From: Anadara kagoshimensis | Taxonomy: Eukaryota > Mollusca > Bivalvia > Arcoida > Arcidae | NCBI GenBank assembly: GCA_021292105.1 | Contig: CM037861.1 | Location: 73,012,509 to 73,076,508, forward strand | DNA length: 64,000 nucleotides | Direction: 5' to 3' | Part shown: positions 9,301 to 64,000 of the stretch, one piece after another | Layout: every line of letters starts with the position of its first letter | Numbering within the stretch: the stretch's first letter is position 1 | Translations under genes and position numbers: made by a program | Notes under the pieces: generated by a model | Told to the model about the DNA's origin: nothing | What the model saw: the letters and a program-made list of their open reading frames with translations, nothing else | Database searches by the model: none

Positions 9301-12300
9301 GTAGGTATACTGTTAATTAGTTTTGAAGTAACTGGAATTTGTCCTTGTCTCAAATTTGAAAAAAAAACAGCATTTTGAAAAAAAATCACCATATTCTTGT
9401 GACTTTTAAGATCATATTTTATGCTACAATTTTTCAGTAACAAGCAATGTCACCTTGTAACCATATGTATATATACATACTTTCTCATGTTTTATTTGTT
9501 TAACTCCACATACAGATATATGGATGACATTCTCTCTCTTTACAATCCTAAATATGGAGACTATGTAAATGCCATCTATCCTAGTGAGCTATGACTGATT
9601 CCTCAAGTTCTGCTTCATATTTAGACTTATACCTCAATCTTGATGCCCACGAAAGGCTACTTTTAAAACTTTTTGACAAACATGATGACTTCAACTTTTC
9701 TATTGTCAGTTTTGCTTTTTTATGCAGCAGTATACCTGCTTCTCCTACTTATTGTGTATTTGTTTTCAAATTAATATGCTATGGTAGAGTTTGTTTCCAC
9801 TATAGGGACTTTGTACAATGAAGCAGGCTTCTAAATAAATTGTTGACCCAGGGATATTTCACGCCTAAGCTTATCAAGGCCCTCAAAAAGTCTTATGGCC
9901 ATCATTACAGTATTGTTGATAAGTTTGATGCCTCTGTGTCTTGGATTGCCTTGGATTTTTTGACATCCCACAGTTCCATGTTCCTTTCACCCAATTTTGA
10001 TTACACATGTGGCTGGTGTACTAGCTATACAGGAGTTGTTTAACCTTCCGAAGCACCCGGCCTCACTTCCCTGGTGGAAGTTCATGTGTCTACCCTACCT
10101 TGTAAGTTGAATAGTTTTTACTTTGCTTCTGAATTGTGATTTGGACATGGATTAGTATTTTTTTAATTGATTACAACCATCCAAATATTAAAATTGACTC
10201 CTTACATACATTGCCATCAGAATGAGAAGTAACTATACCATTTTGACACCAAGACATCTAATCACATCAGGGATAAACCCTTTGACAACAAGACATCTAT
10301 CCCACACAGGGATATACCCCTTGACAACAAGACATCTATCCCACATCAGGGATAAACCCCTTGACACCAAGACATCTAATCACACCAGGGATAAACCCTT
10401 TGACAACAAAAAATCTATCCCACATAGGGATATACCCCTTGACAACAAGACATCTACCCACATCAGGGATAAACACTTTGACAACAAGACATCTATCCCA
10501 CATCAGGGATAAACCCCTTGACAACAAAACATCTACCCACATCAGGGATAAACCTCTTGACAACAAAACGTCTATCCCTCATCAGGGATAAACCTCTTGA
10601 CAACAAGACATCTATCCCACATCAGGGATAAACCCTTTGACAACAACACATCTATCCAACATCAGGGATAAACCTCTTGACAACAAAACGTCTATCCCTC
10701 ATCAGGGATAAACCTCTTGACAACAAGACATCTATCCCACATCAGGGATAAACCCTTTGACAACAAGACATCTGTCCCACATCAGGGATAAACCCCTTAA
10801 CAACAAGAAATCTATCCCACATCAGGGATAAACCTCTTTACAACAAGACATCTATCCCACATCAGGGATAAACCCCTTGACAACAAGACATCTATCCAAC
10901 ATCAGAAATGAACCCCTTGACAACAAAACATCTATCCCACATCAGGGATAAACCTCTTGACAACATGACATCTATCCCACATCAGGGATAAACCCCTTGA
11001 CAACAAGACATCTATCCAACATCAGGGATGAACCTTTTGACAACAAAACATCTATCCCACATCAGGGATGAACCCTTTGACAACAAAACATCTATCCAAC
11101 ATCAGGGATAAACCTCTTGACAACAAAACGTCTATCCCTCATCAGGGATAAACCTCTTGACAACAAGACATCTATCCCACATCAGGGATAAATCCATTGA
11201 CAACAAAACATGTATCCCACATCAAGGAGAAGCCCCTTGACAACAAGACATTTATCTCACAGCAGGGATAAACCCCTTTTCAACTTTGACTCATATGGAC
11301 ACTACAGGAGTGGATGCTGTACAGATCTTATAACCTTATTAAAACACTGTATTGTTCCTATCATATTATAAAGCAGCTTGAGTAATCACATCACTTTAAA
11401 ATAATAAAGGTACCACTGTGTTAACTTGTACTACAAAGTAACAGTTTCAATTTCAGTGTAAAATTTCTGTGTATAAATAAATAAATTGTTATTTTAGCCA
11501 ACTACAGCACCACAAGAAGAGGATGACTCAAAGAGAAAGTTAACAATGGCCATAATATTACTAGCTATTATTCTTGGAATTCCTTGTGTTGTATTGATAT
11601 GTGTTGTCTACATGCAGCGTAAGAAGTAAGTAAAACTCAATGAACTGACATAAAGTAAAGTGTCTTACTGACAATAGAGCATAATTAGGTGTACTATACA
11701 TAAAGTAAAGTGTCTTACTGACAATAGAGCATAATTAGGTGTACTATACATAAAGTAAAGTGTCTTACTGACAATAGACCATAATTAGGTGTACTATACA
11801 TAAAGTAAAGTGTCTTACTGACAATAGACCATAATTAGGTGTACTATACATAAAGTAAAGTGTCTTACTGACAATAGACCATAATTAGGTGTACTATACA
11901 TAAAGTAAAGTGTCTTACTGACAATAGACCATAATTAGGTGTACTATACATAAAGTAAAGTGTCTTACTGACAATAGACCATAATTAGGTGTACTATACA
12001 TAAAGTAAAGTGTCTTACTGACAATAGACCATAATTAGGTGTACTATACATAAAGTAAAGTGTCTTACTGACAATAGACCATAATTAGGTGTACTATACA
12101 TAAAGTAAAGTGTCTTACTGACAATAGACCATAATTAGGTGTACTATACATAAAGTAAAGTGTCTTACTGACAATAGACCATAATTAGGTGTACTATACA
12201 TAAAGTAAAGTGTCTTACTGACAATAGACCATAATTAGGTGTACTATACATAAAGTAAAGTGTCTTACTGACAATAGACCATAATTAGGTGTACTATACA

Positions 12301-15300
12301 TAAAGTAAAGTGTCTTACTGACAATAGACCATAATTAGGTGTACTATACATAAAGTAAAGTGTCTTACTGACAATAGACCATAATTAGGTGTACTATACA
12401 TAAAGTAAAGTGTCTTACTGACAATAGACCATAATTAGGTGTACTATACATAAAGTAAAGTGTCTTACTGACAATAGACCATAATTAGGTGTACTATACA
12501 TAAAGTAAAGTGTCTTACTGACAATAGACCATAATTAGGTGTACTATACATAAAGTAAAGTGTCTTACTGACAATAGACCATAATTAGGTGTACTATACA
12601 TAAAGTAAAGTGTCTTACTGACAATAGACCATAATTAGGTGTACTATACATAAAGTAAAGTGTCTTACTGACAATAGACCATAATTAGGTGTACTATACA
12701 TAAAGTAAAGTGTCTTACTGACAATAGACCATAATTAGGTGTACTATACATAAAGTAAAGTGTCTTACTGACAATAGACCATAATTAGGTGTACTATACA
12801 TAAAGTAAAGTGTCTTACTGACAATAGACCATAATTAGGTGTACTATACATAAAGTAAAGTGTCTTACTGACAATAGACCATAATTAGGTGTACTATACA
12901 TAAAGTAAAGTGTCTTACTGACAATAGACCATAATTAGGTGTACTATACATAAAGTAAAGTGTCTTACTGACAATAGACCATAATTAGGTGTACTATACA
13001 TAAAGTAAAGTGTCTTACTGACAATAGACCATAATTAGGTGTACTATACATAAAGTAAAGTGTCTTACTGACAATAGACCATAATTAGGTGTACTATACA
13101 TAAAGTAAAGTGTCTTACTGACAATAGACCATAATTAGGTGTACTATACATAAAGTAAAGTGTCTTACTGACAATAGACCATAATTAGGTGTACTATACA
13201 TAAAGTAAAGTGTCTTACTGACAATAGACCATAATTAGGTGTACTATACATAAAGTAAAGTGTCTTACTGACAATAGACCATAATTAGGTGTACTATACA
13301 TAAAGTAAAGTGTCTTACTGACAATAGACCATAATTAGGTGTACTATACATAAAGTAAAGTGTCTTACTGACAATAGACCATAATTAGGTGTACTATACA
13401 TAAAGTAAAGTGTCTTACTGACAATAGACCATAATTAGGTGTACTATACATAAAGTAAAGTGTCTTACTGACAATAGACCATAATTAGGTGTACTATACA
13501 TAAAGTAAAGTGTCTTACTGACAATAGACCATAATTAGGTGTACTATACATAAAGTAAAGTGTCTTACTGACATAGACCATAATTAGGTGTACTATACAT
13601 AAAGTAAAGTGTCTTACTGACACTAGACCATAATTAGGTGTACTATACATAAAGTAAAGTGTCTTACTGACAATAGACCATAATTAGGTGTACTATACAT
13701 AAAGTAAAGTGTCTTACTGACAATAGACCATAATTAGGTGTACTATACATAAAGTAAATGTCTTACTGACAATAGACCATAATTAGGTGTACTATACATA
13801 AAGTAAAGTGTCTTACTGACAATAGACCATAATTAGGTGTACTATACATAAAGTAAAGTGTCTTACTGACAATAGACCATAATTAGGTGTACTATACATA
13901 AAGTAAAGTGTCTTACTGACAATAGACCATAATTAGGTGTACTATACATAAAGTAAAGTGTCTTACTGACAATAGACCATAATTAGGTGTACTATACATA
14001 AAGTAAAGTGTCTTACTGACAATAGACCATAATTAGGTGTACTATACATAAAGTAAAGTGTCTTACTGACAATAGACCATAATTAGGTGTACTATACATA
14101 AAGTAAAGTGTCTTACTGACAATAGACCATAATTAGGTGTACTATACATAAAGTAAAGTGTCTTACTGACAATAGACCATAATTAGGTGTACTATACATA
14201 AAGTAAAGTGTCTTACTGACAATAGACCATAATTAGGTGTACTATACATAAAGTAAAGTGTCTTACTGACAATAGACCATAATTAGGTGTACTATACATA
14301 AAGTAAAGTGTCTTACTGACAATAGACCATAATTAGGTGTACTATACATAAAGTAAAGTGTCTTACTGACAATAGACCATAATTAGGTGTACTATACATA
14401 AAGTAAAGTGTCTTACTGACAATAGACCATAATTAGGTGTACTATACATAAAGTAAAGTGTCTTACTGACAATAGACCATAATTAGGTGTACTATACATA
14501 AAGTAAAGTGTCTTACTGACAATAGACCATAATTAGGTGTACTATACATAAAGTAAAGTGTCTTACTGACAATAGACCATAATTAGGTGTACTATACATA
14601 AAGTAAAGTGTCTTACTGACAATAGACCATAATTAGGTGTACTATACATAAAGTAAAGTGTCTTACTGACAATAGACCATAATTAGGTGTACTATACATA
14701 AAGTAAAGTGTCTTACTGACAATAGACCATAATTAGGTGTACTATACATAAAGTAAAGTGTCTTACTGACAATAGACCATAATTAGGTGTACTATACATA
14801 AAGTAAAGTGTCTTACTGACAATAGACCATAATTAGGTGTACTATACATAAAGTAAAGTGTCTTACTGACAATAGACCATAATTAGGTGTACTATACATA
14901 AAGTAAAGTGTCTTACTGACAATAGACCATAATTAGGTGTACTATACATAAAGTAAAGTGTCTTACTGACAATAGACCATAATTAGGTGTACTATACATA
15001 AAGTAAAGTGTCTTACTGACAATAGACCATAATTAGGTGTACTATACATAAAGTAAAGTGTCTTACTGACAATAGACCATAATTAGGTGTACTATACATA
15101 AAGTAAAGTGTCTTACTGACAATAGACCATAATTAGGTGTACTATACATAAAGTAAAGTGTCTTACTGACAATAGACCATAATTAGGTGTACTATACATA
15201 AAGTAAAGTGTCTTACTGACAATAGACCATAATTAGGTGTACTATACATAAAGTAAAGTGTCTTACTGACAATAGACCATAATTAGGTGTACTATACATA

Positions 15301-18300
15301 AAGTAAAGTGTCTTACTGACAATAGACCATAATTAGGTGTACTATACATAAAGTAAAGTGTCTTACTGACAATAGACCATAATTAGGTGTACTATACATA
15401 AAGTAAAGTGTCTTACTGACAATAGACCATAATTAGGTGTACTATACATAAAGTAAAGTGTCTTACTGACAATAGACCATAATTAGGTGTACTATACATA
15501 AAGTAAAGTGTCTTACTGACAATAGACCATAATTAGGTGTACTATACATAAAGTAAAGTGTCTTACTGACAATAGACCATAATTAGGTGTACTATACATA
15601 AAGTAAAGTGTCTTACTGACAATAGACCATAATTAGGTGTACTATACAAAGTAAAGTGTCTTACTGACAATAGACCATAATTAGGTGTACTATACATAAA
15701 GTAAAGTGTCTTACTGACAATAGACCATAATTAGGTGTACTATACATAAAGTAAAGTGTCTTACTGACAATAGACCATAATTAGGTGTACTATACATAAA
15801 GTAAAGTGTCTTACTGACAATAGACCATAATTAGGTGTACTATACATAAAGTAAAGTGTCTTACTGACAATAGACCATAATTAGGTGTACTATACATAAA
15901 GTAAAGTGTCTTACTGACAATAGACCATAATTAGGTGTACTATACATAAAGTAAAGTGTCTTACTGACAATAGACCATAATTAGGTGTACTATACATAAA
16001 GTAAAGTGTCTTACTGACAATAGACCATAATTAGGTGTACTATACATAAAGTAAAGTGTCTTACTGACAATAGACCATAATTAGGTGTACTATACATAAA
16101 GTAAAGTGTCTTACTGACAATAGACCATAATTAGGTGTACTATACATAAAGTAAAGTGTCTTACTGACAATAGACCATAATTAGGTGTACTATACATAAA
16201 GTAAAGTGTCTTACTGACAATAGACCATAATTAGGTGTACTATACATAAAGTAAAGTGTCTTACTGACAATAGACCATAATTAGGTGTACTATACATAAA
16301 GTAAAGTGTCTTACTGACAATAGACCATAATTAGGTGTACTATACATAAAGTAAAGTGTCTTACTGACAATAGACCATAATTAGGTGTACTATACATAAA
16401 GTAAAGTGTCTTACTGACAATAGACCATAATTAGGTGTACTATACATAAAGTAAAGTGTCTTACTGACAATAGACCATAATTAGGTGTACTATACATAAA
16501 GTAAAGTGTCTTACTGACAATAGACCATAATTAGGTGTACTATACATAAAGTAAAGTGTCTTACTGACAATAGACCATAATTAGGTGTACTATACATAAA
16601 GTAAAGTGTCTTACTGACAATAGACCATAATTAGGTGTACTATACATAAAGTAAAGTGTCTTACTGACAATAGACCATAATTAGGTGTTACTATACATAA
16701 AGTAAAGTGTCTTACTGACAATAGACCATAATTAGGTGTACTATACATAAAGTAAAGTGTCTTACTGACAATAGTCCATAATTAGGTGTACTATACATAA
16801 AGTAAAGTGTCTTACTGACAATAGACCATAATTAGGTGTACTATACATAAAGTAAAGTGTCTTACTGACAATAGACCATAATTAGGTGTACTATACATAA
16901 AGTAAAGTGTCTTACTGACAATAGACCATAATTAGGTGTACTATACAAACCAGTCTGCTTACTACTTAGTCTGAATATTTCATATGTTCTGGAAATTACA
17001 GAATTAATACTATAAACTAATGGAATATTGATGTACCTGACAATTTATAAACTTGTTCTATAGTGTTGATTTATTCTACTGTCAGAGTCACTAAATTTGT
17101 GACAGTAATTATGCTTAATTTCCATAGAAAATCCAACAAACTTGTATATTGTTTGATATTGTTCACTTACTTGAGCCATAGTCATAGCTGAAAATTGCTA
17201 TTAATATTACTTATTGTCATACAAACATTATGTAGAAAGAAATATGTTACAGCCTTGGATATTCTACATATCAAAAATCATTATATTTATAAGGGAAGTG
17301 ATGCACTTGTTGGCATATTATGTTGCATGCACAAAAGGATCAGCCATGTACCTGGTTTCTCAGTATGTAAAATTCCCATAGTGGCAACATTTTACTCTGT
17401 GCAGAGATATTCTACAGTTATGACTTGACCCAATTGAGTGAAAAAATAAAGGTTTAGCATATTTGACTGTCACAATAACATTGACTCTGATAATAGTTAT
17501 AATAATTTGATTATATTACTTGTAGGTATATGAGGAAGTTAAAAGCAGCTACAGCTATGGCCTATGGTGAGTTAATGAGACTAGGGTTTTTTCATGGTTC
17601 AGGATATTTGTTCAAAATCGTATTTCACTGTGACCTGAAGTAGTAAAACTTTTTAATAGCTTATCATAAACTAAAAGGTCTAGAAGTTTCATGTTGATAC
17701 TTCTTATTGTTTTGAAGTTATGCTGCAAATAAAATTATGATGTATAAGTGAACAAATGGACTGGGAAAAGTGATATCTACATGCTTTCCCTTTGGGAAGC
17801 ATAAAAACTGAGATATCAAATTGAATCTTCATAGGTAGATAGAACTCTATGAAAATAATTTAAGCACAGTGTACAACAAGATACATAACTCTCTTTTGCA
17901 TAATTTAGGAGTTTTTGCCCTTTTTATTTTTCATACTAAATTTTAATTTGTTAGAATGCCTTCTTGCCTCCATTGGTCATATATATATAAATTTGACTGA
18001 TTTTCTTGTTTTCATTGAAGATCATGTGTATAGTTTAATTACACAGATTGTCAGGTGAACAGTAAAGCCTCTTGTTTAAATCACATGTCCATTTCCATGC
18101 ATCTTCTTTCATTCTTTTATGGTCCAAAAAATGTCAGCAGTTAGGAGACTATGAATTACAATTCAGTACTTTCAGTAAGTTTGTTAATTGTTTTATCTAT
18201 TAATATTTTACATGCTGCTACAGGCAATAAAGGAGGATCAGGTATATACATGTATAAATACAGCCATAATTATGTCACAGATTCATGTGACATCAGATTA

Positions 18301-24300: not shown

Positions 24301-27300
24301 CAACACTGGAACATAGTGTTACTTAACCATTGTTAGTATTAACAACACTGGAACACAGTGTTTCTTAACCTTTGTTAATATTTACCATTGAGAAAACACA
24401 ATGCTTATTAAGCATTGTTAGTGTTAACCACACTTAATATGGTATATCTTAACCATCGTTAGTATTAACCACACTGGAAACACAGTGTTTCTTTTACCTC
24501 TGTTAGTATTTACCATTCAGAAAACACTGTGTAAATTTACCATTTTAAGCATTTACCACACTTAATATGCTGTTACTTAACAATTGCTGGCATTAACAAC
24601 ACTAGAACACAGACTAACATAACCCCTGTTAGTATTTACCATTCAGAAAACATAGTGTTACTTAACCATTGTTAGTACAAACCACACTGGAAACACAGTG
24701 CTACTTAACAATTGTTAGTACAAACCACACTGGAAACACAGTGTTACTTAACCATTGTTAGTACAAACCACACTAGAAACACAGTGCTACTTAACAATTG
24801 TTAGTACAAACCACACTGGAAACACAGTGTTACTTAACCATTGTTAGTACAAACCACACTGGAAACACAGTGCTACTTAACAATTGTTAGTACAAACCAC
24901 ACTGGAAACACAGTGTTAGTTAACCATTGTTAGTACAAACCACACTGGAAACACAGTGCTACTTAACAATTGTTAGTACAAACCACACTGGAAACACAGT
25001 GCTACTTAATCCTTGTTAGTATTGGAGTATGTTAGTATCTGAACAGTAAGGTAATTGGAGTATGTTAGTGTCTGAACAGTAAGGTAATGGGAGTATGTTA
25101 GTATCTGAACAGTAAGGTAATTGGAGTATGTTAGTGTCTGAACAGTAAGGTAATTGGAGTATGTTAGTGTCTGAACAGCAAGGTAATTGGAGTATGTTAG
25201 TATCTGAACAGTAAGGTAATGGGAGTATGTTAGTATCTGAACAGTAAGGTAATTGGAGTATGTTAGTGTCTGAACAGTAAGGTAATGGGAGTATGTTAGT
25301 ATCTGAACAGTAAGGTAATTGGAGTATGTTAGTGTCTGAACAGTAAGGTAATTGGAGTATGTTAGTATCTGAACAGTAAGGTAATTGGAGTATGTTAGTG
25401 TCTGAACAGTAAGATAATTGGAGTATGTTAGTGTCTGAACAGCAAGGTAATTGGTGTATGTTAGTGTCTGAACAGTAAGGTAATTGGAGTATGTTAGTGT
25501 CTGAACAGTAAGGTAATTGGAGTATGTTAGTGTCTGAACAGTAAGGTAATTGGAGTATGTTAGTGTCTGAACAGTAAGGTAATGGGAGTATGTTAGTGTC
25601 TGAACAGTAAGGTAATTGGAGTATGTTAGTATCTGAACAGCAAGGTAATTGGTGTATGTTAGTGTCTGAACAGTAAGGTAATTGGAGTATGTTAGTGTCT
25701 GAACAGTAAGGTAATTGGAGTATGTTAGTGTCTGAACAGTAAGGTAATTGGAGTATGTTAGTGTCTGAACAAAAAGGTAATGGGAGTATGTTAGTGTCTG
25801 AACAGTAAGGTAATTGGAGTATGTTAGTGTCTGAACAGTAAGGTAATTGGAGTATGTTAGTGTCTGAACAGTAAGGTAATTGGAGTATGTTAGTATCTGA
25901 ACAGTAAGGTAATGGGAGTATGTTAGTATCTTAACAGTAAGGTAATTGGAGTATGTTAGTATCTGAACAGTAAGGTAATTGGAGTATGTTATTGTCTGAA
26001 CAGCAAGGTAATTGGAGTATGTTAGTGTCTGAACAGTAAGGTAACGGGAGTATGTTAGTATCTTAACAGTAAGGTAATTGGAGTATGTTAGTATCTGAAC
26101 AGTAAGGTAATTGGAGTATGTTATTGTCTGAACAGCAAGGTAATTGGAGTATGTTAGTGTCTGAACAGTAAGGTAATGGGAGTATGTTAGTATCTTAACA
26201 GTAAGGTAATTGGAGTATGTTAGTATCTGAACAGTAAGGTAATTGGAGTATGTTATTGTCTGAACAGCAAGGTAATTGGAGTATGTTAGTGTCTGAACAG
26301 TAAGGTAACGGGAGTATGTTAGTGTCTGAACAGTAAGGTAATTGGAGTATGTTAGTATCTGAACAGTAAGGTAATGGGAGTATGTTAGTATCTGAACAGT
26401 AAGGTAATTGGAGTATGTTAGTATCTGAACAGTAAGATAATTGGAGTATGTTAGTATCTGAACAGTAAGGTAATTGGAGTATGTTAGTATCTGAACAGTA
26501 AGGTAATTGGAGTATGTTATTGTCTGAACAGTAAGATAATTGGAGTATGTTAGTGTCTGAACAGTAAGGTAATTGGAGTATGTTAGTGTCTGAACAGTAA
26601 GGTAATGGGAGTATGTTAGTATCTGAACAGTAAGGTAATTGGAGTATGTTAGTATCTGAACAGTAAGGTAATGGGAGTATGTTAGTATCTGAACAATAAG
26701 GTAATTGGAGTATGTTAGTATCTGAACAGTAAGGTAATTGGAGTATGTTAGTGTCTGAACAGTAAGGTAATTGGAGTATGTTAGTATCTGAACAGTAAGG
26801 TAATTGGAGTATGTTAGTGTCTGAACAGTAAGGTAATTGGAGTATGTTAGTGTCTGAACAGTAAGGTAATTGGAGTATGTTAGTGTCTGAACAGTAAGGT
26901 AATTGGAGTATGTTAGTGTCTGAACAGTAAGGTAATTGGAGTATGTTAGTATCTGAACAGTAAGGTAATGGGAGTATGTTAGTATCTGAACAGTAAGGTA
27001 ATGGGAGTATGTTAGTGTCTGAACAGTTAGGTAATGGGAGTATGTTAGTGTCTGAACAGTAAGGTAATTGGAGTATGTTAGTATCTGAACAGTTAGGTAG
27101 TTGGAGTATGTTAGTGTCTGAACAGTAAGGTAATTGGAGTATGTTAGTATCTGTACAGTAAGGTAATTGGAGTATGTTAGTGTCTGAACAGTTAGGTAAT
27201 GGGAGTATGTTAGTGTCTGAACAGTAAGGTAATTGGAGTATGTTAGTATCTGAACAGTTAGGTAGTTAGAGTATGTTAGTATCTGAACAGTAAGGTAATT

Positions 27301-30300
27301 GGAGTATGTTAGTGTCTGAACAGTAAGGTAATTGGAGTATGTTAGTGTCTGAACAGTAAGGTAATTGGAGTATGTGAGTGTCTGAACAGTAAGGTAATTG
27401 GAGTATGTTAGTATCTGAACAGTAAGGTAATTGGAGTATGTTAGTGTCTGAACAGTAAGGTAATTGGAGTATGTTAGTATCTGAACAGTAAGGTAATTGG
27501 AGTATGTTAGTATCTGAACAGTAAGGTAATTGGAGTATGTTAGTGTCTGAACAGTAAGGTAATTGGAGTATGTTAGTGTCTGAACAGTAAGGTAATTGGA
27601 GTATGTTAGTGTCTGAACAGTAAGGTAATTGGAGTATGTTAGTGTCTGAACAGTAAGGTAATTGGAGTATGTTAGTATCTGAACAGTAAGGTAATGGGAG
27701 TATGTTAGTATCTGAACAGTAAGGTAATGGGAGTATGTTAGTGTCTGAACAGTTAGGTAATGGGAGTATGTTAGTGTCTGAACAGTAAGGTAATTGGAGT
27801 ATGTTAGTATCTGAACAGTTAGGTAGTTGGAGTATGTTAGTGTCTGAACAGTAAGGTAATTGGAGTATGTTAGTATCTGTACAGTAAGGTAATTGGAGTA
27901 TGTTAGTGTCTGAACAGTTAGGTAATGGGAGTATGTTAGTGTCTGAACAGTAAGGTAATTGGAGTATGTTAGTATCTGTACAGTAAGGTAATTGGAGTAT
28001 GTTAGTGTCTGAACAGTTAGGTAATGGGAGTATGTTAGTGTCTGAACAGTAAGGTAATTGGAGTATGTTAGTATCTGAACAGTTAGGTAGTTAGAGTATG
28101 TTAGTATCTGAACAGTAAGGTAATTGGAGTATGTTAGTGTCTGAACAGTAAGGTAATTGGAGTATGTTAGTGTCTGAACAGTAAGGTAATTGGAGTATGT
28201 GAGTGTCTGAACAGTAAGGTAATTGGAGTATGTTAGTATCTGAACAGTAAGGTAATTGGAGTATGTTAGTGTCTGAACAGTAAGGTAATTGGAGTATGTT
28301 AGTATCTGAACAGTAAGGTAATTGGAGTATGTTAGTATCTGAACAGTAAGGTAATTGGAGTATGTTAGTGTCTGAACAGTAAGGTAATTGGAGTATGTTA
28401 GTGTCTGAACAGTAAGGTAATTGGAGTATGTTAGTGTCTGAACAGTAAGGTAATTGGAGTATGTTAGTGTCTGAACAGTAAGGTAATTGGAGTATGTTAG
28501 TATCTGAACAGTAAGGTAATGGGAGTATGTTAGTGTCTGAACAGTAAGGTAATTGGAGTATGTTAGTGTCTGAACAGTAAGGTAATGGGAGTATGTTAGT
28601 GTCTGAACAGTAAGGTAAATGGAGTATGTTAGTATCTGAACAGTAAGGTAATTGGAGTATGTTAGTGTCTGAACAGTAAGGTAATTGGAGTATGTTAGTA
28701 TCTGAACAGTAAGGTAATTGGAGTATGTTAGTGTCTGAACAGTAAGGTAATTGGAGTATGTTAGTATCTGAACAGTAAGGTAATTGGAGTATGTTAGTGT
28801 CTGAACAGTAAGGTAATTGGAGTATGTTAGTGTCTGAACAGTAAGGTAATTGGAGTATGTTAGTGTCTGAACAGTAAGGTAATTGGAGTATGTTAGTGTC
28901 TGAACAGTAAGGTAATGGGAGTATGTTAGTATCTGAACAGCAAGGTAATTGGTGTATGTTAGTATCTGAACAGTAAGGTAATTGGAGTATGTTAGTATCT
29001 GAACAGTAAGGTAATGGGAGTATGTTAGTGTCTGAACAGTAAGGTAATTGGAGTATGTTAGTGTCTGAACAGTAAGGTAATGGGAGTATGTTAGTGTCTG
29101 AACAGTAAGGTAAATGGAGTATGTTAGTATCTGAACAGTAAGGTAATTGGAGTATGTTATTGTCTGAACAGTAAGGTAATTGGAGTATGTTAGTATCTGA
29201 ACAGTAAGGTAATGGGAGTATGTTAGTGTCTGAACAGTAAGGTAATTGGAGTATGTTAGTATCTGAACAGTAAGGTAATGGAGTATGTTAGTATCTGAAC
29301 AGTAAGGTAATTGGAGTATGTTAGTGTCTGAACAGTAAGGTAATTGGAGTATGTTAGTATCTGAACAGTAAGGTAATGGGAGTATGTTAGTATCTGAACA
29401 GTAAGGTAATTGGAGTATGTTAGTGTCTGAACAGTAAGGTAATTGGAGTATGTTAGTATCTGAACAGCAAGGTAATTGGTGTATGTTAGTGTCTGAACAG
29501 TAAGGTAATTGGAGTATGTTAGTATCTGAACAGCAAGGTAATTGGTGTATGTTAGTGTCTGAACAGTAAGGTAATTGGAGTATGTTAGTGTCTGAACAGT
29601 AAGGTAATGGGAGTATGTTAGTATCTGAACAGTAAGGTAATTGGAGTATGTTAGTGTCTGAACAGTAAGGTAATGGGAGTATGTTAGTATCTGAACAGTA
29701 AGGTAATTGGAGGATGTTAGTGTCTGAACAGTAAGGTAATTGGAGTATGTTAGTGTCTGAACAGTAAGGTAATTGGAGTATGTTAGTGTCTGAACAGTAA
29801 GGTAATTAGAGTATGTTAGTGTCCGAACAGTCAGTTTAATGTTAAATACAAACATTTGAAATAAATTTTGCTTGATTTGAACAGAAATCATTTTTACGAA
29901 GGAGAAACAAGATTCTAGGTTGAGTAATACCATATTTTAATAATTTTTTGTTTATTTTTAAGTTGCTGTATATTGTACCTATACAATAATTGAAATGCAT
30001 GCTAAGTGTTATTATTTGTTGAATGTTGCATTCTATGTTTAATAACCATGAAAACTTGTGATATAAAAACTGAGAACATAATAAAACACAATCTGAACTT
30101 TTGATATACATAGATATTTATTCCTAGGTCAGGATTTTTTCAATTAATACATGTACATGTACTAAAGATTTTGAAATTTTTTCAGAATGGTTGTACAAGA
30201 AGAATACTGTTTGCATTTCACTGAGAAAGGGGACTATTCTAATTGGACTTCTAATGAGGGTATACATGGGTGTCCTTTAATGTTTTGTTATAATGTTCAT

Positions 30301-49625: not shown

Positions 49626-50380
49626 ACATGAGTTTTTATATAATCACAAACCAAAACTTTTGTTATAATTCAGGTGACACGGATAAAATAAAATAATCAA
49701 GATTTACTATCATTTTATTGAGAAAAATATATTTACCCTTATACAACTGCATTAATTGTTGTCATAGATTTGCTCAGTAATTTTATTTGAATATAAATAT
49801 ATATCAACCCATTGGGTTAATATTATGCTGGTCATAATTATTTCTTTTGGACTGTATGCTGACTTACTTGAAATTGGAAATAATTTATAATACTTTGTGT
49901 CATTTAAACATTTAGAAAAACAAACTGTTAGCAAAGCATCACATTTGGTCATTGAATGTAAACTAGTACATATCATATTGCACCTTGTTTTATATTTATG
50001 AGCTCCTGCAGTCATAGATATTTTTAATTTCTCTCAGAATATGTGAGTTATAACTGTCCAAAGTGTAATTTCTCATCAGTTTATTGTAGTATATCATGAA
50101 GCTTAAACTGACTCAATTAGAAACTGATGCACTTCAAGGATATGTTAGAATGTTTGATACAAATATCATGTTTATACAACTGATGAATCCATTGTACAAA
50201 CACAACAACATGGTGCAATAAAACCATTTTCAGATATATTATAAGTATTGTAAATGTTATTCATCCTATGCAGGTCAGTTGTTAATTAAATGTTTTATAA
50301 ATTTACACATTTGTTATTTTTATATTCACTCCAACAAATGTTTTATTTAAGTAGTTACCATATAACATAATAATGAAATA
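49626..50380. other. Unique spacer before the 77-bp satellite
   Basis: About 750 bp of AT-rich sequence. An 87-codon minus-strand frame (49752-50015) has no domain that I recognise, so it is left uncalled. A diverged GTTTTATTTAAGTAGTTACC stretch leads into the satellite. Confidence 0.5.
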
Positions 50381-53300
50381 GGAACCATGGTTTACTAATG
50401 GGTACACAATGAGACATTACTATAGAATAGGGATCATGATTATATAATGATATACCAGGAACCATGGTTTACTATGGGTACACAATGAGACATTACTATA
50501 GAATAGGGACTGATATATAATGATATACCAGGAACCATGGTTTACTAATGGGTACACAATGAGACATTACTATAGAATAGGGATCATGATTATATAATGA
50601 TATACTGGAACCATGGTTTACTAATGGGTACACAATGAGACATTACTATAGAATAGGGACCATGATTATATATGATATACCAGGAACCATGGTTTACTAA
50701 TGGGTACACAATGAGACATTACTATAGAATAGGAACCATGATTATATAATGATATACCGGAACCATGGTTTACTAATGGGTACACAATGAACATTACTAT
50801 AGAATAGGACCATGATTATATAATGATATATCCAGGAACCATAGTTTACTAATGGGTACACAATGAGACATTACTATAGAATAGGGATCATGATTATATA
50901 ATGATATACCAAGAACCATGGTTTACTAATGGTACACAATGAGACATTACTATAGAGAGGGACATGATTATATAATGATATACCAGGAACCATGGTTTAC
51001 TAATGGGTACACAATGAGACATTACTATAGAATAGGGACCATGATTATATAATGATATACCAGGAACCATGTTTACTAATGGGTACACAATGAGACATTA
51101 CTATAGAATAGGAACCATGATTATATAATGATATATCCAGGAACCATGGTTTACTAATGGGTACACAATGAGACATTACTATAGAATAGGGACCATGATT
51201 ATATAATGATATACCGGAACCATGGTTTACTAATGGGTACACAATGAGACATGACTATAGAATAGGGACCATGATTATAATGATATACCGGAACCATGGT
51301 TTACTAATGGGTACACAATGAGACATGACTATAGAATAGGGACCATGATTATATAATGATATACCAGGAACCATGGTTTACTATGGTACACAATGAGACA
51401 TGACTATAGAATAGGGACCATGATTATATAATGATATACCGGAACCATGGTTTACTAATGGGTACACAATGAGACATTACTATAGAATAGGGGCCATGAT
51501 TATATAATGATATACCAGGAACCATGGTTTACTAATGGGTACACAATGAGACATTACTATAGAATAGGGCCATGATTATATAATGATATATCAGGAACCA
51601 TGTTTACTAATGGTACACAATGAGACATTACTATAGAATAGGGACCATGATTATATAATGATATACCAGGAACCATGGTTTACTATTGGTACACAATGAG
51701 ACATTACTATAGAAGAGGGACCATGATTATATAATGATATACCAGGAACCATGGTTTACTAATGTACACAATGAGACATGACTATAGAATAGGGACCATG
51801 ATTATATAATGATATACCGGAACCATGGTTTACTAATGGGTACACAATGAGACATGACTATAGAATAGGGACCATGATTATATATGATATACCAGGAACC
51901 ATGGTTTATAATGGGTACACAATGAGACATGACTATAGAATAGGGACCATGATTATATAATGATATACCGGAACTGGTTTACTATGGGTACACAATGAGA
52001 CATTACATAGAATAGGGACCATGATTATATAATGATATACCGGGAACCATGGTTTACTAATGGTACACAATGAGACATTACTATAGAATAGGGACCATGA
52101 TTATATAATGATATACCAGGAACCATGGTTTACTAATGGGTACACAATGAGACATTACTATAGAATAGGGACCATGGTTATATAATGATATACCAGGAAC
52201 CATGGTTTACTAATGGGTACACAATGAGACATTACTATAGAATAGGGACCATGATTATATATGATATACCAGGAACCATGGTTTACTAATGGTACACAAT
52301 GAGACATTACTATAGAATAGGGACCATGATTATATAATGATATACCAGGGAACCATGGTTTACTAATGGGTACACATGAGACATGACTATAGAATAGGGA
52401 CCATGATTATATAATGATATACCGGAACCATGGTTTACTAATGGGTACACAATGAGACATTACTATAGAATAGGGACCATGATTATATAATGATATACCG
52501 GGAACCATGGTTTACTAATGGGTAAACAATGAGACATGACTATAAATAGGGACCATGATTATATAATGATATACCGGAACCATGGTTTACTAATGGGTAC
52601 ACAATGAGACATGACTATAGAATAGGGACCATGATTATATAATGATATACCGGAACCATGGTTTACTAATGGGTACACAATGAGACATTACTATAGAATA
52701 GGACCATGATTATATAATGATATACCGGAACCATGGTTTACTAATGGTACACAATGAGACATGACTATAGAATAGGGACCATGATTATATAATGATATAC
52801 CGGAACCATGTTTACTATGGGTACACAATGAGACATTACTATAGAATAGGGATCATGATTATATAATGATATACCAGGAACCATGGTTTACTAATGGGTA
52901 CACAATGAGACATGACTATAGAATAGGGACCATGATTATATAATGACATACCAACCATGGTTTACTTGGGTACACAATGAGACATTACTATAGAATAGGG
53001 ACCATGATTATATATGATATACCAGGAACCATGGTTTACTAATGGTACACATGAGACATTACTATAGAATAGGACCATGATTTATAATGATATAACGGGA
53101 ACCATGGTTTACTTATGGGTACACAATGAGACATTACTATAGAATAGGAACCATGATTATATAATGATATACCAGGGATCCATGGTTTACTAATGGGTAC
53201 ACAATGAGACATGACTATAGAATAGGGATCATGATTATATAATGATATACCAGGAACCATGGTTTACTATGGTACACAATGGACATTACTATAGAATAGG

Positions 53301-56300
53301 GACCATGATTATATAATGATATACCAGGAACCATGGTTTACTAATGGGTACACAATGAGACATTACTATAGAATAGGGACCATGATTATATAATGATATA
53401 CCGGAACCATGGTTTACTAATGGTACACATGAGACATTACTATAGAATAGGGATCATGATTATATAATGATATACCAGGAACCATGGTTTACTAATGGGT
53501 ACACAATGAGACATTACTATAGAATAGGGACCATGATTATATAATGATATACAGGAACCATGGTTTACTATGGGTACACAATGAGACATTACTATAGAAT
53601 AGGGACCATGATTATATATGATATCCGGAACCATGGTTTACTAATGGGTACACAATGAGACATTACTATAGAATAGGGATCATGATTATATAATGATATA
53701 CCAGGAACCATGTTTACTATGGGTACACAATGAGACATTACTATAGAATAGGACCATGATTATATAATGATATACCAGAACCATGGTTTTACTAATGGGT
53801 ACACAATGAGACATTACTATAGAATAGGGACCATGATTATATATGATATACCAGGAACCATGTTTTACTAATGGGTACACAATGAGACATTACTATAGAA
53901 TAGGGACCATGATTATATAATGATATACCGGGAACCATGGTTTCTAATTGGTACACAATGAACATTACTATAGAATAGGGACCATGATTATATAATGATA
54001 TACCAGGGAACCATGGTTTACTAATAAGTACACAATGAGACATGACTATAGAATAGGGACCATGATTATATAATGATATACCGGGACCATGGTTTACTAA
54101 TGGGTACACAATGAGACATACTATAGAATAGGGACCATGATTATATAAGATATACCGGAACCATGGTTTACTAATGGGTACACAATGAGACATGACTATA
54201 GAATAGGGACCATGATTATATAATATATACCGGGAACCATGGTTTACTAATGGGTACACAATGAGACATTACTATAGAATAGGGACCATGATTATATAAT
54301 GATATACCGGACCATGGTTTACTATGGGTACACAATGAGACATGACTATAGAATAGGGACCATGATTATATAATTATACCGGGAACCATGGTTTTACTAA
54401 TGGGTACACAATGAGACATTACTATAGAATAGGGACCATGATTATAATGATATACCAGGAACCATGGTTTACTAATGGGTACACAATGAGACATTACTAT
54501 AGAATAGGGACCATGATTATATAATGATATCGGGAACCATGTTTACTAATGGGTACACAATGAGACATGACTATAGAATAGGGACCATGATTATATAATA
54601 TATACCAGGGAACCATGGTTTACTATGGGTACACAATGAGACATTACTATAGATAGGGACCATGATTATATAATGATAGACCAGGAACCATGGTTTACTA
54701 ATGGTACACAATGAGACATGACTATAGAATAGGGACCATGATTATATAATGATATACCGGGAACCATGGTTTACTAATGGGTAACAATGAGACATTACTA
54801 TAGATAGGGACCATGATTATATAATGATATACCGGAACCATGTTTACTAATGGGTACACAATGAACATTACTATAGAATAGGGACCATGATTATATAATG
54901 ATATACCAGGAACCATGGTTTCTAATGGGTACACAATGAGACATGACTATACAAAGGGACCATGATTATATAATGATATACCGGAACCATGGTTTACTAT
55001 GGTACACAATGAACATTACTATAGAATAGGGACCATGATTATATAATGATATACCGGAATCATGGTTTACTAATGGATACACAATGAGACATTACTATAG
55101 AATAGGGACCATGATTATATAATGATATACCGGGAACCATGGTTTACTAATGGGTACACAATGAGACATTACTATAGAATAGGGATCATGATTATATAAT
55201 GATATACCAGGAACCATGGTTTACTAATGGGTACACAATGAGACATTACTATAGAATAGGGACCATGATTATATAATGATATATCAGGAACCATGGTTTA
55301 CTAATGGGTACACAATGAGACATTACTATAGAATAGGGACCATGATTATATAATGATATACGGAACCATGGTTTACTAATGGGTACACAATGAGACATTA
55401 CTATAGATAGGGATCATGATTATATAATGATATATCAGGAACCATGGTTTACTAATGGGTACACAATGAGACATATTACTATAGAATAGGGACCATGATT
55501 ATATAATGATATATCAGGAACCATGGTTTACTAATGGGTACACATGAGACATTACTATAGAATAGGGACCATGATTATATAATGATATATCAGGAACCAT
55601 GGTTTACTAATGTACACAATGAGACATTACTATAGAATAGGGACCATGATTATATAATGATATACCAGGAACCATGGTTTACTAATGGGTACACAATGAG
55701 ACATTACTATAGAATAGGGACCATGATTATATAATGATATACAGGAACCATGGTTTACTAATGGGTACACAATGAGACATTACTATAGAATAGGGACCAT
55801 GATTATATAATGATATATCAGGAACCATGGTTTACTAATGGGTACACAATGAGACATTACTATAGAATAGGGACCATGATTATATAATGATATACCGGGA
55901 ACCATGGTTTACTAATGGGTACACAATGACATTACTATAGAATAGGGACCATGATTATATAATGATATACCGGGAACCATGGTTTACTAATGGGTACACA
56001 ATGAGACATTACTATAGAATAGGGACCATGATTATAATGATATACCGGGAACCATGGTTTACTAATGGGTACACAATGAGACATTACTATAGAATAGGGA
56101 CCATGATTATATAATGATATACCGGGAACCATGGTTTACTAATGCGTACACAATGAGACATTACTATAGAATAGGGACCATGATTATATAATGATATACC
56201 GGGAACCATGGTTTACTAATGGGTACACAATGAGACATTACTATAGAATAGGGACCATGATTATATAATGATATACCAGGAACCATGGTTTACTAATGGG

Positions 56301-59300
56301 TACACAATGAGACATTACTATAGAATAGGGACCATGATTATATAATGATATACCAGGAACCATGGTTTACTAATGGGTACACAATGAGACATTACTATAG
56401 AATAGGGACCATGATTATATAATGATATATCAGAACCATGGTTTACTAATGGGTACACAATGAGACATTACTATAGAATAGGACCATGATTATATAATGA
56501 TATACGGGAACCATGGTTTACTAATGGTACACAATGAGACATTACTATAGAATAGGACCATGATTATATAATGATATACCGGGAACCATGGTTTACTAAT
56601 GGGTACACAATGAGACATTACTATAGAATAGGGACCATGATTATATAATGATATACCGGGAACCATGGTTTACTAATGGGTACACAATGAGACATTACTA
56701 TAGAATAGGACCATGATTATATAATGATATACCAGGAACCATGGTTTACTAATGGGTACACAATGAGACATTACTATAGAAGAGGGACCATGATTATATA
56801 ATGATATACCAGGAACCATGGTTTACTAATGGTACACAATGAGACATTACTATAGAAGAGGACCATGATTATATAATGATATACCGGGAACCATGGTTTA
56901 CTAATGGGTACACAATGAGACATTACTATAGAATAGGGACCATGATTATATAATGATATACCGGAACCATGGTTTACTAATGGGTACACAATGAGACATT
57001 ACTATAGAATAGGGACCATGATTATATAATGATATATCAGGAACCATGGTTTACTAATGGGTACACAATGAGACATTACTATAGAATAGGGACCATGATT
57101 ATATATGATATATCAGGAACCATGGTTTACTAATGGGTACACAATGAGACATTACTATAGAATAGGGACCATGATTATATAATGATATATCAGGAACCAT
57201 GGTTTACTAATATACACAATGAGACATTACTATAGAATAGGGACCATGATTATATAATGATATACCAGGAACCATGGTTTACTAATGGGTACACAATGAG
57301 ACATTACTATAGAATAGGGACCATGATTATATATATGATATACCGGGAACCATGGTTTACTAATGGGTACACAATGAGACATTACTATAGAATAGGGACC
57401 ATGATTATATAATGATATACCGGGAACCATGGTTTACTAATGGTACAATGAGACATTACTATAGAATAGGGACCATGATTTATAATGATATACCAGGAAC
57501 CATGGTTTACTAATGGGTACACAATGAGACATTACTATAGAATAGGGACCATGATTATATAATGATATACCAGGAACCATGGTTTACTAATGGGTACACA
57601 ATGAGACATTACTATAGAATAGGGACCATGATTATATAATGATATACCAGGAACCATGGTTTACTAATGGGTACACAATGAGACATTACTATAGAATAGG
57701 GACCATGATTATATAATGATATACCGGAATCATGGTTTACTAATGGGTACACAATGAGACATTACTATAGAATAGGGACCATGATTATATAATGATATAC
57801 CGGAACCATGGTTTACTAATGGGTACACAATGAGACATTACTATAGAATAGGGACATGATTATATAATGATATCCAGGAACCATGGTTTACTAATGGGTA
57901 CACAATGAGACATTACTATAGAATAGGGACCATGATTATATAATGATATACCAGGAACCATGGTTTACTAATGGGTACACAATGAGACATTACTATAGAA
58001 TAGGGACCATGATTATATAATGATATACCGGGAACCATGGTTTACTAATGGGTACACAATGAGACATTACTATAGAATAGGGACCATGATTATATAATGA
58101 TATATCAGGAACCATGGTTTACTAATGGGTACACAATGAGACATTACTATAGAATAGGGACCATGATTATATAATGATATATCAGGAACCATGGTTTACT
58201 AATGGGTACACAATGAGACATTACTATAGAATAGGGACCATGATTATATAATGATATATCAGGAACCATGGTTTACTAATAAGTACACAATGAGACATTA
58301 CTATAGAATAGGGACCATGATTATATAATGATATACCAGGAACCATGGTTTACTAATGGGTACACAATGAGACATTACTATAGAATAGGGACCATGATTA
58401 TATAATGATATACCAGGAACCATGGTTTACTAATGGGTACACAATGAGACATTACTATAGAATAGGGACCATGATTATATAATGATATATCAGGAACCAT
58501 GGTTTACTAATGGGTACACATGAGACATTACTATAGAATAGGGACCATGATTATATAATGATATACCGGAACCATGGTTTACTAATGGGTACACAATGAG
58601 ACATTACTATAGAATAGGGACCATGATTATATAATGATATACCGGGAACCATGGTTTACTAATGGGTACACAATGAGACATTACTATAGAATAGGGACCA
58701 TGATTATATAATGATATACCGGGAACCATGGTTTACTAATGGGTACACAATGAGACATTACTATAGAATAGGGACCATGATTATATAATGATATACCGGG
58801 AACCATGGTTTACTAATGGGTACACAATGAGACATTACTATAGAATAGGACCATGATTATATAATGATATACCGGGAACCATGGTTTACTAATGGGTACA
58901 CAATGAGACATTACTATAGAATAGGGACCATGATTATAATGATATACCGGAACCATGGTTTACTAATGGGTACACAATGAGACATTACTATAGAATAGGG
59001 ACCATGATTATATAATGATATACCGGAACCATGGTTTACTAATGGGTACACAATGAGACATTACTATAGAATAGGACCATGATTATATAATGATATACAA
59101 GGAACCATGGTTTACTAATGGGTACACAATGAGACATTACTATAGAATAGGGACCATGATTATATAATGATATACCGGGAACCATGGTTACTAATGGGTA
59201 CACAATGAGACATTACTATAGAATAGGGACCATGATTATATAATGATATACCGGGAACCATGGTTTACTAATGGGTACACAATGAGACATTACTATAGAA

Positions 59301-62300
59301 TAGGGACCATGATTATATAATGATATACCGGAACCATGGTTACTAATGGGTACACAATGAGACATTACTATAGAATAGGGACCATGATTATATAATGATA
59401 TACCAGGAACCATGGTTTACTAATGGGTACACAATGAGACATTACTATAGAAGAGGGACCATGATTATATAATGATATACCAGGAACCATGGTTTACTAA
59501 TGGGTACACAATGAGACATTACTATAGAATAGGGACCATGATTATATAATGATATACCGGAACCATGGTTTACTAATGGGTACACAATGAGACATTACTA
59601 TAGAATAGGACCATGATTATATAATGATATACCGGGAACCATGGTTTACTAATGGGTACACAATGAGACATTACTATAGAATAGGGACCATGATTATATA
59701 ATGATATACCGGAACCATGGTTTACTAATGGGTACACAATGAGACATTACTATAGAATAGGGATCATGATTATATAATGATATACCAGGAACCATGGTTT
59801 ACTAATGGGTACACAATGAGACATTACTATAGAATAGGACCATGATTATATAATGATATACCAGGAACCATGGTTTACTAATGGGTACACAATGAGACAT
59901 TACTATAGAATAGGGACCATGATTATATAATGATATACCAGGAACCATGGTTTACTAATGGGTACACAATGAGACATTACTATAGAATAGGGACCATGAT
60001 ATATAATGAATACAGGAACCATGGTTTACTAATGGGTACACAATGAGACATTACTATAGAATAGGGACCATGATTATATAATGATATACCAGGAACCATG
60101 GTTTACTAATGGGTACACAATGAGACATTACTATAGAATAGGGACCATGATTATATAATGATATACCGGGAACCATGGTTTACTAATGGGTACACAATGA
60201 GACATTACTATAGAATAGGGACCATGATTATATAATGATATACCGGGAACCATGGTTTACTAATGGGTACACAATGAGACATTACTATAGAATAGGGACC
60301 ATGATTATATAATGATATACCGGGAACCATGGTTTACTAATGCGTACACAATGAGACATTACTATAGAATAGGGACCATGATTATATAATGATATACCGG
60401 AACCATGGTTTACTAATGGGTACACAATGAGACATTACTATAGAATAGGGACCATGATTATATAATGATATACCGGGAACCATGGTTTACTAATGGGTAA
60501 CAATGAGACATTACTATAGAATAGGGACCATGATTATATAATGATATACCGGAACCATGGTTTACTAATGGGTACACAATGAGACATTACTATAGAATAG
60601 GGACCATGATTATATAATGATATACAGGAACCATGGTTTACTAATGGGTACACAATGAGACATTACTATAGAATAGGGACCATGATTATATAATGATATA
60701 CCAGGAACCATGGTTTACTAATGGTACACAATGAGACATTACTATAGAATAGGGACCATGATTATATAATGATATACCAGGAACCATGGTTTACTAATGG
60801 GTACACAATGAGACATTACTATAGAATAGGGACCATGATTATATAATGATATACCAGGAACCATGGTTTTACTAATGGGTACACAATGAGACATACTATA
60901 GAATAGGGACCATGATTATATAATGATAACCGGAACCATGGTTTACTAATGGGTACACAATGAGACATTACTATAGAATAGGGACCATGATATATAATGA
61001 TATACGGAACCATGGTTTTCTAATGGGTACACAATGAGACATTACTATAGAATAGGGACCATGATTATATAATGATATACAGGAACCATGGTTTACTAAT
61101 GGGTACACAATGAGACATTACTATAGAATAGGGACCATGATTATATAATGATATACAGGAACCATGGTTTACTAATGGGTACACAATGAGACATTACTAT
61201 AGAATAGGGACCATGATTATATAATGATATACCAGGAACCATGGTTTACTAATGGGTACACAATGAGACATTACTATAGAATAGGGACCATGATTATATA
61301 ATGATATACCAGGAACCATGGTTTACTAATGGGTACACAATGAGACATTACTATAGAATAGGGACCATGATTATATAATGATATACCAGGAACCATGGTT
61401 TACTAATGGGTACACAATGAGACATTACTATAGAATAGGGACCATGATTATATAATGATATACCGGAACCATGGTTTACTAATGGGTACACAATGAGACA
61501 TTACTATAGAATAGGGACCATGATTATATAATGATATACCGGGAACCATGGTTTACTAATGGGTACACAATGAGACATTACTATAGAATAGGGACCATGA
61601 TTATATAATGATATACCGGGAACCATGGTTTACTAATGGGTACACAATGAGACATTACTATAGAATAGGGACCATGATTATATAATGATATACCGGGAAC
61701 CATGGTTTACTAATGCGTACACAATGAGACATTACTATAGAATAGGGACCATGATTATATAATGATATACCGGGAACCATGGTTTACTAATGGTACACAA
61801 TGAGACATTACTATAGAATAGGGACCATGATTATATAATGATATACCGGGAACCATGGTTTACTAATGGGTACACAATGAGACATTACTATAGAATAGGG
61901 ACCATGATTATATAATGATATACCGGAACCATGGTTTACTAATGGGTACACAATGAGACATTACTATAGAATAGGGACCATGATTATATAATGATATACA
62001 AGAACCATGGTTTACTAATGGGTACACAATGAGACATTACTATAGAATAGGACCATGATTATATAATGATATACCGGGAACCATGGTTTACTAATGGTAC
62101 ACAATGAGACATTACTATAGAATAGGGACCATGATTATATAATGATATACCGGGAACCATGGTTTACTAATGGGTACACAATGAGACATTACTATAGAAT
62201 AGGGACCATGATTATATAATGATATACCGGGAACCATGGTTTACTAATGGGTACACAATGAGACATTACTATAGAATAGGACCATGATTATATAATGATA

Positions 62301-63088
62301 TACCAGGAACCATGGTTTACTAATGGGTACACAATGAGACATTACTATAGAATAGGGACCATGATTATATAATGATATACCAGGAACCATGGTTTACTAA
62401 TGGGTACACAATGAGACATTACTATAGAAGAGGGACCATGATTATATAATGATATACCAGGAACCATGGTTTACTAATGGGTACACAATGAGACATTACT
62501 ATAGAGAGGACCATGATTATATAATGATATACCGGGAACCATGGTTTACTAATGGGTACACAATGAGACATTACTATAGAATAGGGACCATGATTATATA
62601 ATGATATACCAGGAACCATGGTTTACTAATGGGTACACAATGAGACATTACTATAGAATAGGGACCATGATTATATATGATATACGGAACCATGGTTTAC
62701 TAATGGGTACACAATGAGACATTACTATAGAATAGGGACCATGATTATATAATGATATACCAGGAACCATGGTTTACTATTGGGTACACAATGAGACATT
62801 ACTATAGAATAGGGACCATGATTATATAATGATATACCGGGAACCATGGTTTACTATGGGTACACAATGAGACATTACTATAGAATAGGGACCATGATTA
62901 TATAATGATATACGGGAACCATGGTTTACTAATGGGTACACAATGAGACATTACTATAGAATAGGGACCATGATTATATAATGATATACCAGGAACCATG
63001 GTTTACTAATGGGTACACAATGAGACATTACTATAGAATAGGGACCATGATTATATAATGATATACCAGGAACCATGGTTTACTAATG
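50381..63088. repeat. 77-bp satellite array, about 166 copies, 12.7 kb
   Basis: Unit of 77 bp (GGAACCATGGTTTACTAATG, GGTACACAATGAGACATTAC, TATAGAATAGGGACCATGAT, TATATAATGATATACCA; period read at 57541 and 57618). It contains two palindromes, ACCATGGT and ATTATATAAT. The stretch starting GGAACCATGG and the one starting GGGACCATGA match at 17 of 28 positions, so the unit probably grew from an older internal duplication. Substitution types are CATTAC/CATGAC, CCAGG/CCGGG/ATCAGG and GGGACC/GGGATC. One-base deletions are very frequent, above all in 50400-55400, and much rarer after 57500. Minus-strand ORFs of 64-140 codons here are shadows that break at every deletion. Confidence 0.97.
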
Positions 63089-63828
63089 ATGTTACTAGAA
63101 GCAATAAATGATATACAGGAATGTTAAATACAGACAGCAATAAAACTTGAATATGGAAGTTAGACCGACAAAATTTGGTATTATTTTGAAAATTTTAATG
63201 AAAAAAAAAAATAAATAAACAATAAATTTTTTAAATTACAAAATGTACAATCAATGAACAGACCTGGCTTTGTAATATAGATATGGAAGTCCACAAATAG
63301 TTAATTATGAATTTTTATCTGTATCCGAAATCCTTGGTAGTAAATCCTTTTATGAAAATGTCCGAATCAGTTATGTAATAAAGTTCACAGTTAATTTCCT
63401 AGTAATAATTCCAAATTAGTAAAATCCAATTTTGAAGAAATATTGTTGTCGAAAATGGTCCACAGAGTCTAATAAAATGTTACTTATAATCCAATTGTTT
63501 GAATCAAACAGCTCCCAAAGTATGTTAGTCGAAAGTAGAATTCCAGGTAAACAGATTGCAGTATCAAAATACACATAAAATAACTTTACAAAAGCTACTC
63601 AAAATTTCTCTCTCATTTCACACCGAAAATCTTCATACATATACAATAATACCAGTCACATAACTAATACATGTAAACACACTTATTCTAGAAATTACAG
63701 ATAAATTTAATTGAAAACATTAAAAACTATGTTTAAAACCATGACCGAGCTTATCCTTCAAAAAGTACACACAAAATAAAAATCACCCCAGTGAACCTGT
63801 GATCCTAAAGAATCCTAATTTTGGTCTA
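63089..63828. other. Unique segment upstream of the ribozyme
   Basis: About 740 bp of A-rich unique sequence with no open frame or second ribozyme that I can see. It may be the body of a non-autonomous retroelement ending in the hammerhead, but no boundary, terminal repeat or coding trace supports this. Confidence 0.5.
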
Positions 63829-63874
63829 AGCACTACTGATGAGGAATTGTATACCGAAACGGCAGTCTAGTGCT
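63829..63874 (+). ncRNA. Hammerhead self-cleaving ribozyme, type I, with short helix III
   Basis: All core elements are in order: helix I strand AGCACTA (63829-63835), CTGATGA (63836-63842), helix II GG...CC (63843-63855, extended by A-U and U-A across an A.A mismatch with a UGU loop), GAAA (63856-63859), a short helix III closed by C63860-G65 with loop GGCA plus the A-U core pair, then the cleavage triplet GTC (63865-63867) and TAGTGCT (63868-63874), which pairs perfectly with the first strand over 7 bp. Cleavage is predicted after C63867. Hammerheads with one- or two-pair helix III are known from animal Penelope-like retroelements and retrozymes, where they process transcripts. Here no companion copy is seen in the window. 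Confidence 0.88.
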
Positions 63875-63930
63875 GTAAAATTAAAACTGGTATAATATGT
63901 AATTTATAACATATACTTTATTTACACACT
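63875..63930. other. AT-rich sequence following the ribozyme
   Basis: Short AT-rich stretch (TGTAAAATTAAAACTGG and onward) leading to the microsatellite. It could be the end of the retroelement carrying the hammerhead. Confidence 0.4.
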
Positions 63931-63931
63931 C

Positions 63932-63976
<45 letters not shown>

Positions 63977-64000
63977 ATATATATATATGTGTGTGTGTGT
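63931..64000. repeat. (AT)n / (GT)n microsatellite
   Basis: TATATATA runs broken by AATATATAAT steps, turning into GTGTGTGTGT at the right edge of the window. Simple-sequence tails often follow retroelement 3' ends, which fits the ribozyme just upstream. The array continues beyond the window. Confidence 0.95.

Follow-up and report, generated by a model that had tools for sequence, protein, structure and literature searches.

Type I hammerhead ribozymes occur in large numbers in several animal genomes. PMC7229834 reports over 6000 of them for Acropora millepora, about 5000 for Mytilus galloprovincialis and 126,247 for the axolotl genome. In the axolotl hammerhead HHR_Amex2, helix III comprises two base pairs and a tetraloop, as in the hammerheads of invertebrate retrozymes. 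HHR_Amex2 also carries a U·U mismatch at the base of the helix II stem, yet its monomer is described to cleave 22% in an hour (PMC7229834). Hammerheads of the Penelope type, in contrast, are described to lack helix III in most cases (PMC7761336, PMC6155905). Minimal hammerheads are mostly found dispersed in non-coding DNA, according to PMC7761336, and for a Penelope-like element studied in vitro, PMC11167929 reports that mutations in the hammerhead left insertion unaffected.

The window analysed here, a stretch of DNA of 64 kb, carries a type I hammerhead sequence on the plus strand at positions 63829-63874. The blocks CTGATGA, CGAAAC and GTC can be read directly in the correct order and register, which confirms the claim of an earlier sequence-only reading that the invariant core bases are present in order. 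Helix I consists of the 5' arm AGCACTA (63829-63835) and the 3' arm TAGTGCT (63868-63874); all seven pairs are Watson-Crick, both arms are flush with the core and the helix is open-ended, in agreement with the perfect 7-bp helix described earlier. The 5' arm is followed by the catalytic core CUGAUGA (C3-A9, 63836-63842), which was also matched exactly in a pattern search of the window, and by a weak helix II (GGAATTGTATACC, 63843-63855), which was assigned from sequence reading and folding. In the helix II sequence GGAAUUGUAUACC, G63843-C63855 and G63844-C63854 are paired, A63845 and A63853 form an A·A mismatch, and beyond this mismatch the pairs A63846-U63852 and U63847-A63851 enclose a UGU loop. 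The core element GAA (G12-A14) occupies 63856-63858. Helix III, as it can be drawn from the sequence, is composed of AC (63859-63860), a GGCA loop (63861-63864) and GT (63865-63866), and thus contains the two pairs A63859-U63866 and C63860-G63865 that had been noted before. Position 63867 corresponds to C17, and by the register and the established hammerhead numbering, cleavage is predicted between 63867 and 63868, the same position that had been proposed earlier. Further outwards, the arms AATTTT (63817-63822) and AAAATT (63877-63882) could form a weak, A/T-only distal extension of helix I, separated from the inner helix by an internal loop of 6 nt on the 5' and 2 nt on the 3' side. This distal helix may quite possibly have arisen by chance and was left out of the evidence.

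If transcribed from the plus strand and correctly folded, the RNA would cleave itself between C63867 and U63868. The 2'-OH of C17 would attack, with G12 acting as the base and the 2'-OH of G8 as the acid, thereby generating a 2',3'-cyclic phosphate and a 5'-OH. In mobile copies arranged in tandem, cleavage would release a unit-length RNA, which would then be circularised and reverse transcribed; the single copy found here is predicted to have weak or no activity.

With the animal non-LTR retrozymes of Acropora, Mytilus and the axolotl (HHR_Amex2), as they are described in PMC7229834, the motif shares the type I topology with an open helix I, a helix III that can be drawn with 2 bp and a tetraloop, and surroundings of low G+C content. 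Like the Mytilus retrozyme copies, it is also devoid of most of the usual nucleotides of the loop-loop interaction (PMC7229834). It differs from retrozymes in that these are reported to form tandem units of about 150-450 bp (PMC7229834), whereas a single copy is found here, with 126 bases covered downstream, and in that its helix II is interrupted by the A·A mismatch. Penelope-like elements and Terminons also possess type I hammerheads, which are dispersed or located in pseudo-LTRs and are described without clear tertiary contacts (PMC7761336, PMC6155905, PMC11167929); however, those of Penelope-like elements usually lack the helix III that can be drawn here as two base pairs and a loop (PMC7761336, PMC6155905). 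The closer resemblance is therefore to the retrozyme type, since the helix III of the motif corresponds to that of HHR_Amex2. The minimal helix III had previously been assigned to Penelope-like elements and retrozymes alike; this holds for the retrozymes (PMC7229834) and does not for the Penelope-type hammerheads, so that the two cannot be treated as one form on the basis of these reports (PMC7761336, PMC6155905). Within the window, no defining feature of either a retrozyme or a Penelope element was found beyond the ribozyme itself, and the motif is classed as a type I hammerhead sequence that is assigned to neither. It adds one more genomic hammerhead to the thousands present in known animal genomes.

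We consider it probable that the motif is a type I hammerhead that stands alone and belongs to the kind found in animal non-autonomous retrozymes or Penelope elements, most likely as a dispersed copy, weakened or in decay. Most probably, it is an unremarkable remnant of a mobile element; this descent, a eukaryotic and probably invertebrate animal host, and the transcription of the motif are what we infer. The more specific claim that the hammerhead marks the 3' or terminal region of a retroelement found no support in the window. A search of the 64 kb with R1, a covariance model built from ten hammerheads from IMG/VR viral contigs, revealed no second hammerhead. Comparison of the region 63089-64000 with the window gave no clear flanking repeat among the matches listed (to an E-value of about 0.5), which comprised only AT runs and scattered weak matches, and no tandem unit was detected in the window upstream of the motif or in the 126 bases covered downstream. 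There are 76 open frames of at least 45 codons in the unique regions of the window, 45 of which were listed; in the 19 hand-picked from these, one of them located after 63088, no Pfam family scored above its cut-off. Five matches far below the cut-off (E 0.04-0.2) were taken as chance. In this limited search of 19 frames and 126 downstream bases, no frame for a Penelope reverse transcriptase or a GIY-YIG domain was recognised beside the motif.

The earlier statement that there is no other recognisable trace of an element is subject to one caveat, which lies about 54 kb away from the motif. At 9403-10040 on the plus strand, three adjacent open frames in two reading frames contain the peptides RYMDDILSL, SYLDLYLNLD and LLNKLLTQGYF. 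These broken frames with their YMDD-like motif may resemble the last part of a reverse transcriptase of the kind found in invertebrate genomes. They gave no Pfam or NCBIfam match; a peptide pattern derived from the middle frame matched 71 stretches in viral contigs, among which no relative was confirmed.

A more favourable view of the hammerhead, which we regard as unlikely, is that it is an active monomer currently working in a transcribed locus, perhaps aided by tertiary contacts that an internal loop of helix I (63823-63828/63875-63876) makes with the loop region of helix II. In favour of this view, the core is complete, helix I has 7 bp, the possible AATTTT/AAAATT helix would turn the bases between it and the inner helix into such an internal loop, and HHR_Amex2, as described in PMC7229834, tolerates a mismatch in helix II. 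The predicted folding, however, argues against high activity. Using ViennaRNA, the hammerhead fold reaches -4.8 kcal/mol with a 2-bp helix II and -4.1 kcal/mol when helix II continues past the mismatch, whereas the minimum-energy fold at -9.4 kcal/mol is a hairpin in which the core CUG is paired with CAG. The hammerhead fold thus lies 4.6-5.3 kcal/mol above the competing hairpin, and the probability of the -4.1 kcal/mol fold is about 1e-5, compared to 0.04-0.46 for seven yardstick loci in the same calculation. For five of these seven, the hammerhead is the minimum; L025 and L071 have another minimum by 0.4 kcal/mol. In the ensemble of the motif, helix I is predicted to form, with a probability of only 0.42 for its innermost pair, while helix II reaches 0.46 for the two G-C pairs and 0.12 for the first pair past the mismatch. 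The pairs of helix III have a probability of just 0.0004-0.0005 in the free 46-mer, in which the competing CUG/CAG helix reaches 0.77. An extended 66-mer including the possible distal helix gives -4.4 kcal/mol for the hammerhead versus -12.6 kcal/mol for the minimum. Furthermore, with 7 contiguous base pairs, the inner helix I is longer than the 4-6 bp found in 11 distinct yardstick stretches.

Weak type I hammerheads have been reported to work as two-strand dimers with an extended helix III. For the motif, such a dimer is calculated at -14.5 kcal/mol in the hammerhead form versus -26.2 kcal/mol, and the folding stability of the plus strand is no better than that of shuffled sequences (z -0.3 to -0.8). 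Nearest-neighbour energies ignore tertiary contacts of the core and the loops, and the calculations therefore argue for a weak ribozyme and do not prove a dead one. The description of the hammerhead as intact-looking was nevertheless too strong, as it took account of neither the A·A mismatch in helix II nor the competing fold; a core that is perfect in its letters may still fold badly by prediction.

A second alternative is that the motif is an A/T-rich imperfect hairpin that has acquired the letters of a hammerhead by accident. In support of this, a loose descriptor (CUGANGA with helices II and III of 2 bp or more) does find matches in shuffled DNA: when the window was dinucleotide-shuffled 300 times, it matched five times, in each case with 4 bp or more in helix I (4, 4, 4, 5 and 6 bp). 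When extrapolated to 7 bp, such loose matches would be of the order of ten per Gb. In addition, neither copies nor element context are seen within the window, which also contains no Rfam match at the gathering threshold. In contrast, none of the loose matches in the 300 shuffles had a helix I of 7 bp, and the strict core CTGATGA N6-30 CGAAAC N2-8 GTC matched three times in 5978 shuffles, which corresponds to 0.0005 per 64-kb window (0.0021 by a mononucleotide calculation). The chance of seven helix I pairs is 1.2e-4 for Watson-Crick pairs only and 1.4e-3 with G-U pairs, and that of at least four of five helix II pairs is 0.08. Multiplication of core and helices gives a joint expectation of about 5e-9 to 2e-7 for each window, corresponding to about 8e-5 to 4e-3 per Gb; this calculation assumes that the parts are independent and was designed after the motif was known. 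The shuffles, the strict-core expectation, the R1 score and the natural core matches described below agree with the earlier judgement that a random match is very unlikely, and a chance origin of the motif at 63829-63874 is very unlikely.

Natural matches to the core were collected from IMG/VR viral contigs, with one scan contributing at least 120 stretches and a second one 63. Among the 165 distinct core matches listed, none has a 7-bp helix I; the longest has 6 bp. Fewer than four helix II pairs are present in 123 of the 165, which show a helix I of 0-2 bp in 112 cases, 3 bp in five and 4-6 bp in six; in four of these last six (L023, L093, L098 and L114), helix II is long and has a mismatch close to its base. 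The remaining 42 have at least four helix II pairs and a helix I of 0-1 bp (29 loci), 2 bp (one) or 4-6 bp (12). Some of the loci whose helix I measures 0-1 bp are probably genuine hammerheads for which the regular expression misplaced the boundary, since several of them score well with model R1. Three viral contigs (L160, L168 and L180) each carry three copies of a hammerhead core, preceded by GGTTAA and with CGTT or TGTT after GTC; they look like a family with a different helix boundary, because their helix I is not flush under the regular expression used. The exact 25-nt core string of the motif had no match in viral contigs, and a helix-I-specific pattern had none in bacterial and archaeal genomes. 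A distant BLAST search of 63089-64000 against phage records yielded 67 matches; the 20 listed are all short pieces with E-values of 0.3 or worse and were taken as chance.

Searches with covariance models gave a divided result, and the check that had been suggested earlier came out accordingly: no Rfam model matched at its gathering threshold anywhere in the window, while R1 detected the motif with 31.7 bits (E 1.5e-9). The second-best R1 match in the window, at 50174, has 15.3 bits and an E-value of 0.005 and is merely a CUGAUGA hairpin; the E-values of R1, whose calibration was short, are therefore optimistic. As the ten sequences of R1 were chosen for the same core, its score depends on the core as well, and what it adds independently is mainly helix I. 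In a joint R1 search of the motif and 63 hand-chosen loci with the same core, carried out with the default filters of Infernal, the motif ranked sixth, and of the 63 loci, 15 appeared at E-values up to 0.3, whereas 48 were not listed. The Rfam models share the core blocks with the motif and score low. Hammerhead_1 (RF00163) aligns to a 111-base segment with 12.9 bits (gathering threshold 34, E 1.8) in a register shifted by 3 nt, and RAGATH-1-hammerhead (RF03152) aligns in register to the 46-mer, likewise with 12.9 bits (gathering threshold 56.3). A scan of the last 1000 bases at E-values up to 10 returned no hammerhead, only six microRNA-family matches, all of them on the AT repeat. The gathering threshold is a database cut-off and not a feature of the ribozyme, and none of seven control loci with well-paired hammerheads reaches it for any Rfam hammerhead model. 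The silence of Rfam is therefore not decisive, and curated models should be used with the caution that they can miss well-paired hammerheads. The motif nonetheless fits Rfam less well than two of three controls in 111-base scans: L022 obtained 26.4 bits with HH9 (E 4.5e-5) and L041 23.8 bits with Hammerhead_1 (E 0.00046), both clearly above the motif, while L023 gave no hammerhead match.

It is highly improbable that the motif is a stand-alone hammerhead, outside any tandem repeat, in single-copy non-coding DNA that acts on a host transcript, although such a role has been proposed for the conserved amniote hammerheads. Given its unusual architecture of a 7-bp inner helix I and a helix II interrupted by A·A, it would then need an outside partner or a protein in order to fold. 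That the motif is a different small RNA, namely a C/D-box snoRNA or a mir-252-like precursor, is barely credible: SNORD82 (15.5 bits, E 0.76, thereby outranking Hammerhead_1) and mir-252 (13.1 bits) appear in the 111-base scan, but both are far under their gathering thresholds of 43 and 45 bits, and neither explains the GAAA and GUC blocks. In C/D-box snoRNAs, the C and D boxes flank the closing stem; as far as the sequence can be read, no D box CUGA is located beside the closing stem on the 3' side.

The leftover of a mobile element, as which the hammerhead is most likely to be regarded, is embedded in an A/T-rich window full of minisatellites (68 rows in the repeat table), in which ARAGORN detected no tRNA. 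An (AT)n/(GT)n tract begins about 60 bases 3' of the motif, and a 12.7-kb array of about 167 copies of a 77-bp unit (50380-63088) ends about 740 bases before it. This array is one of over a dozen in the window that exceed 500 bp in length, their units measuring 33-145 bp. A stop-free frame of 1599 codons on the minus strand (25006-29805) corresponds to a 33-bp minisatellite that is read in frame and is unlikely to encode a protein. The 5.3-kb array at 11648-16947 consists of 50-bp units whose copies are 99% matched, compared to 88% in the flanking arrays; since it is more uniform than both of its neighbours, a recent expansion of this array is suggested.
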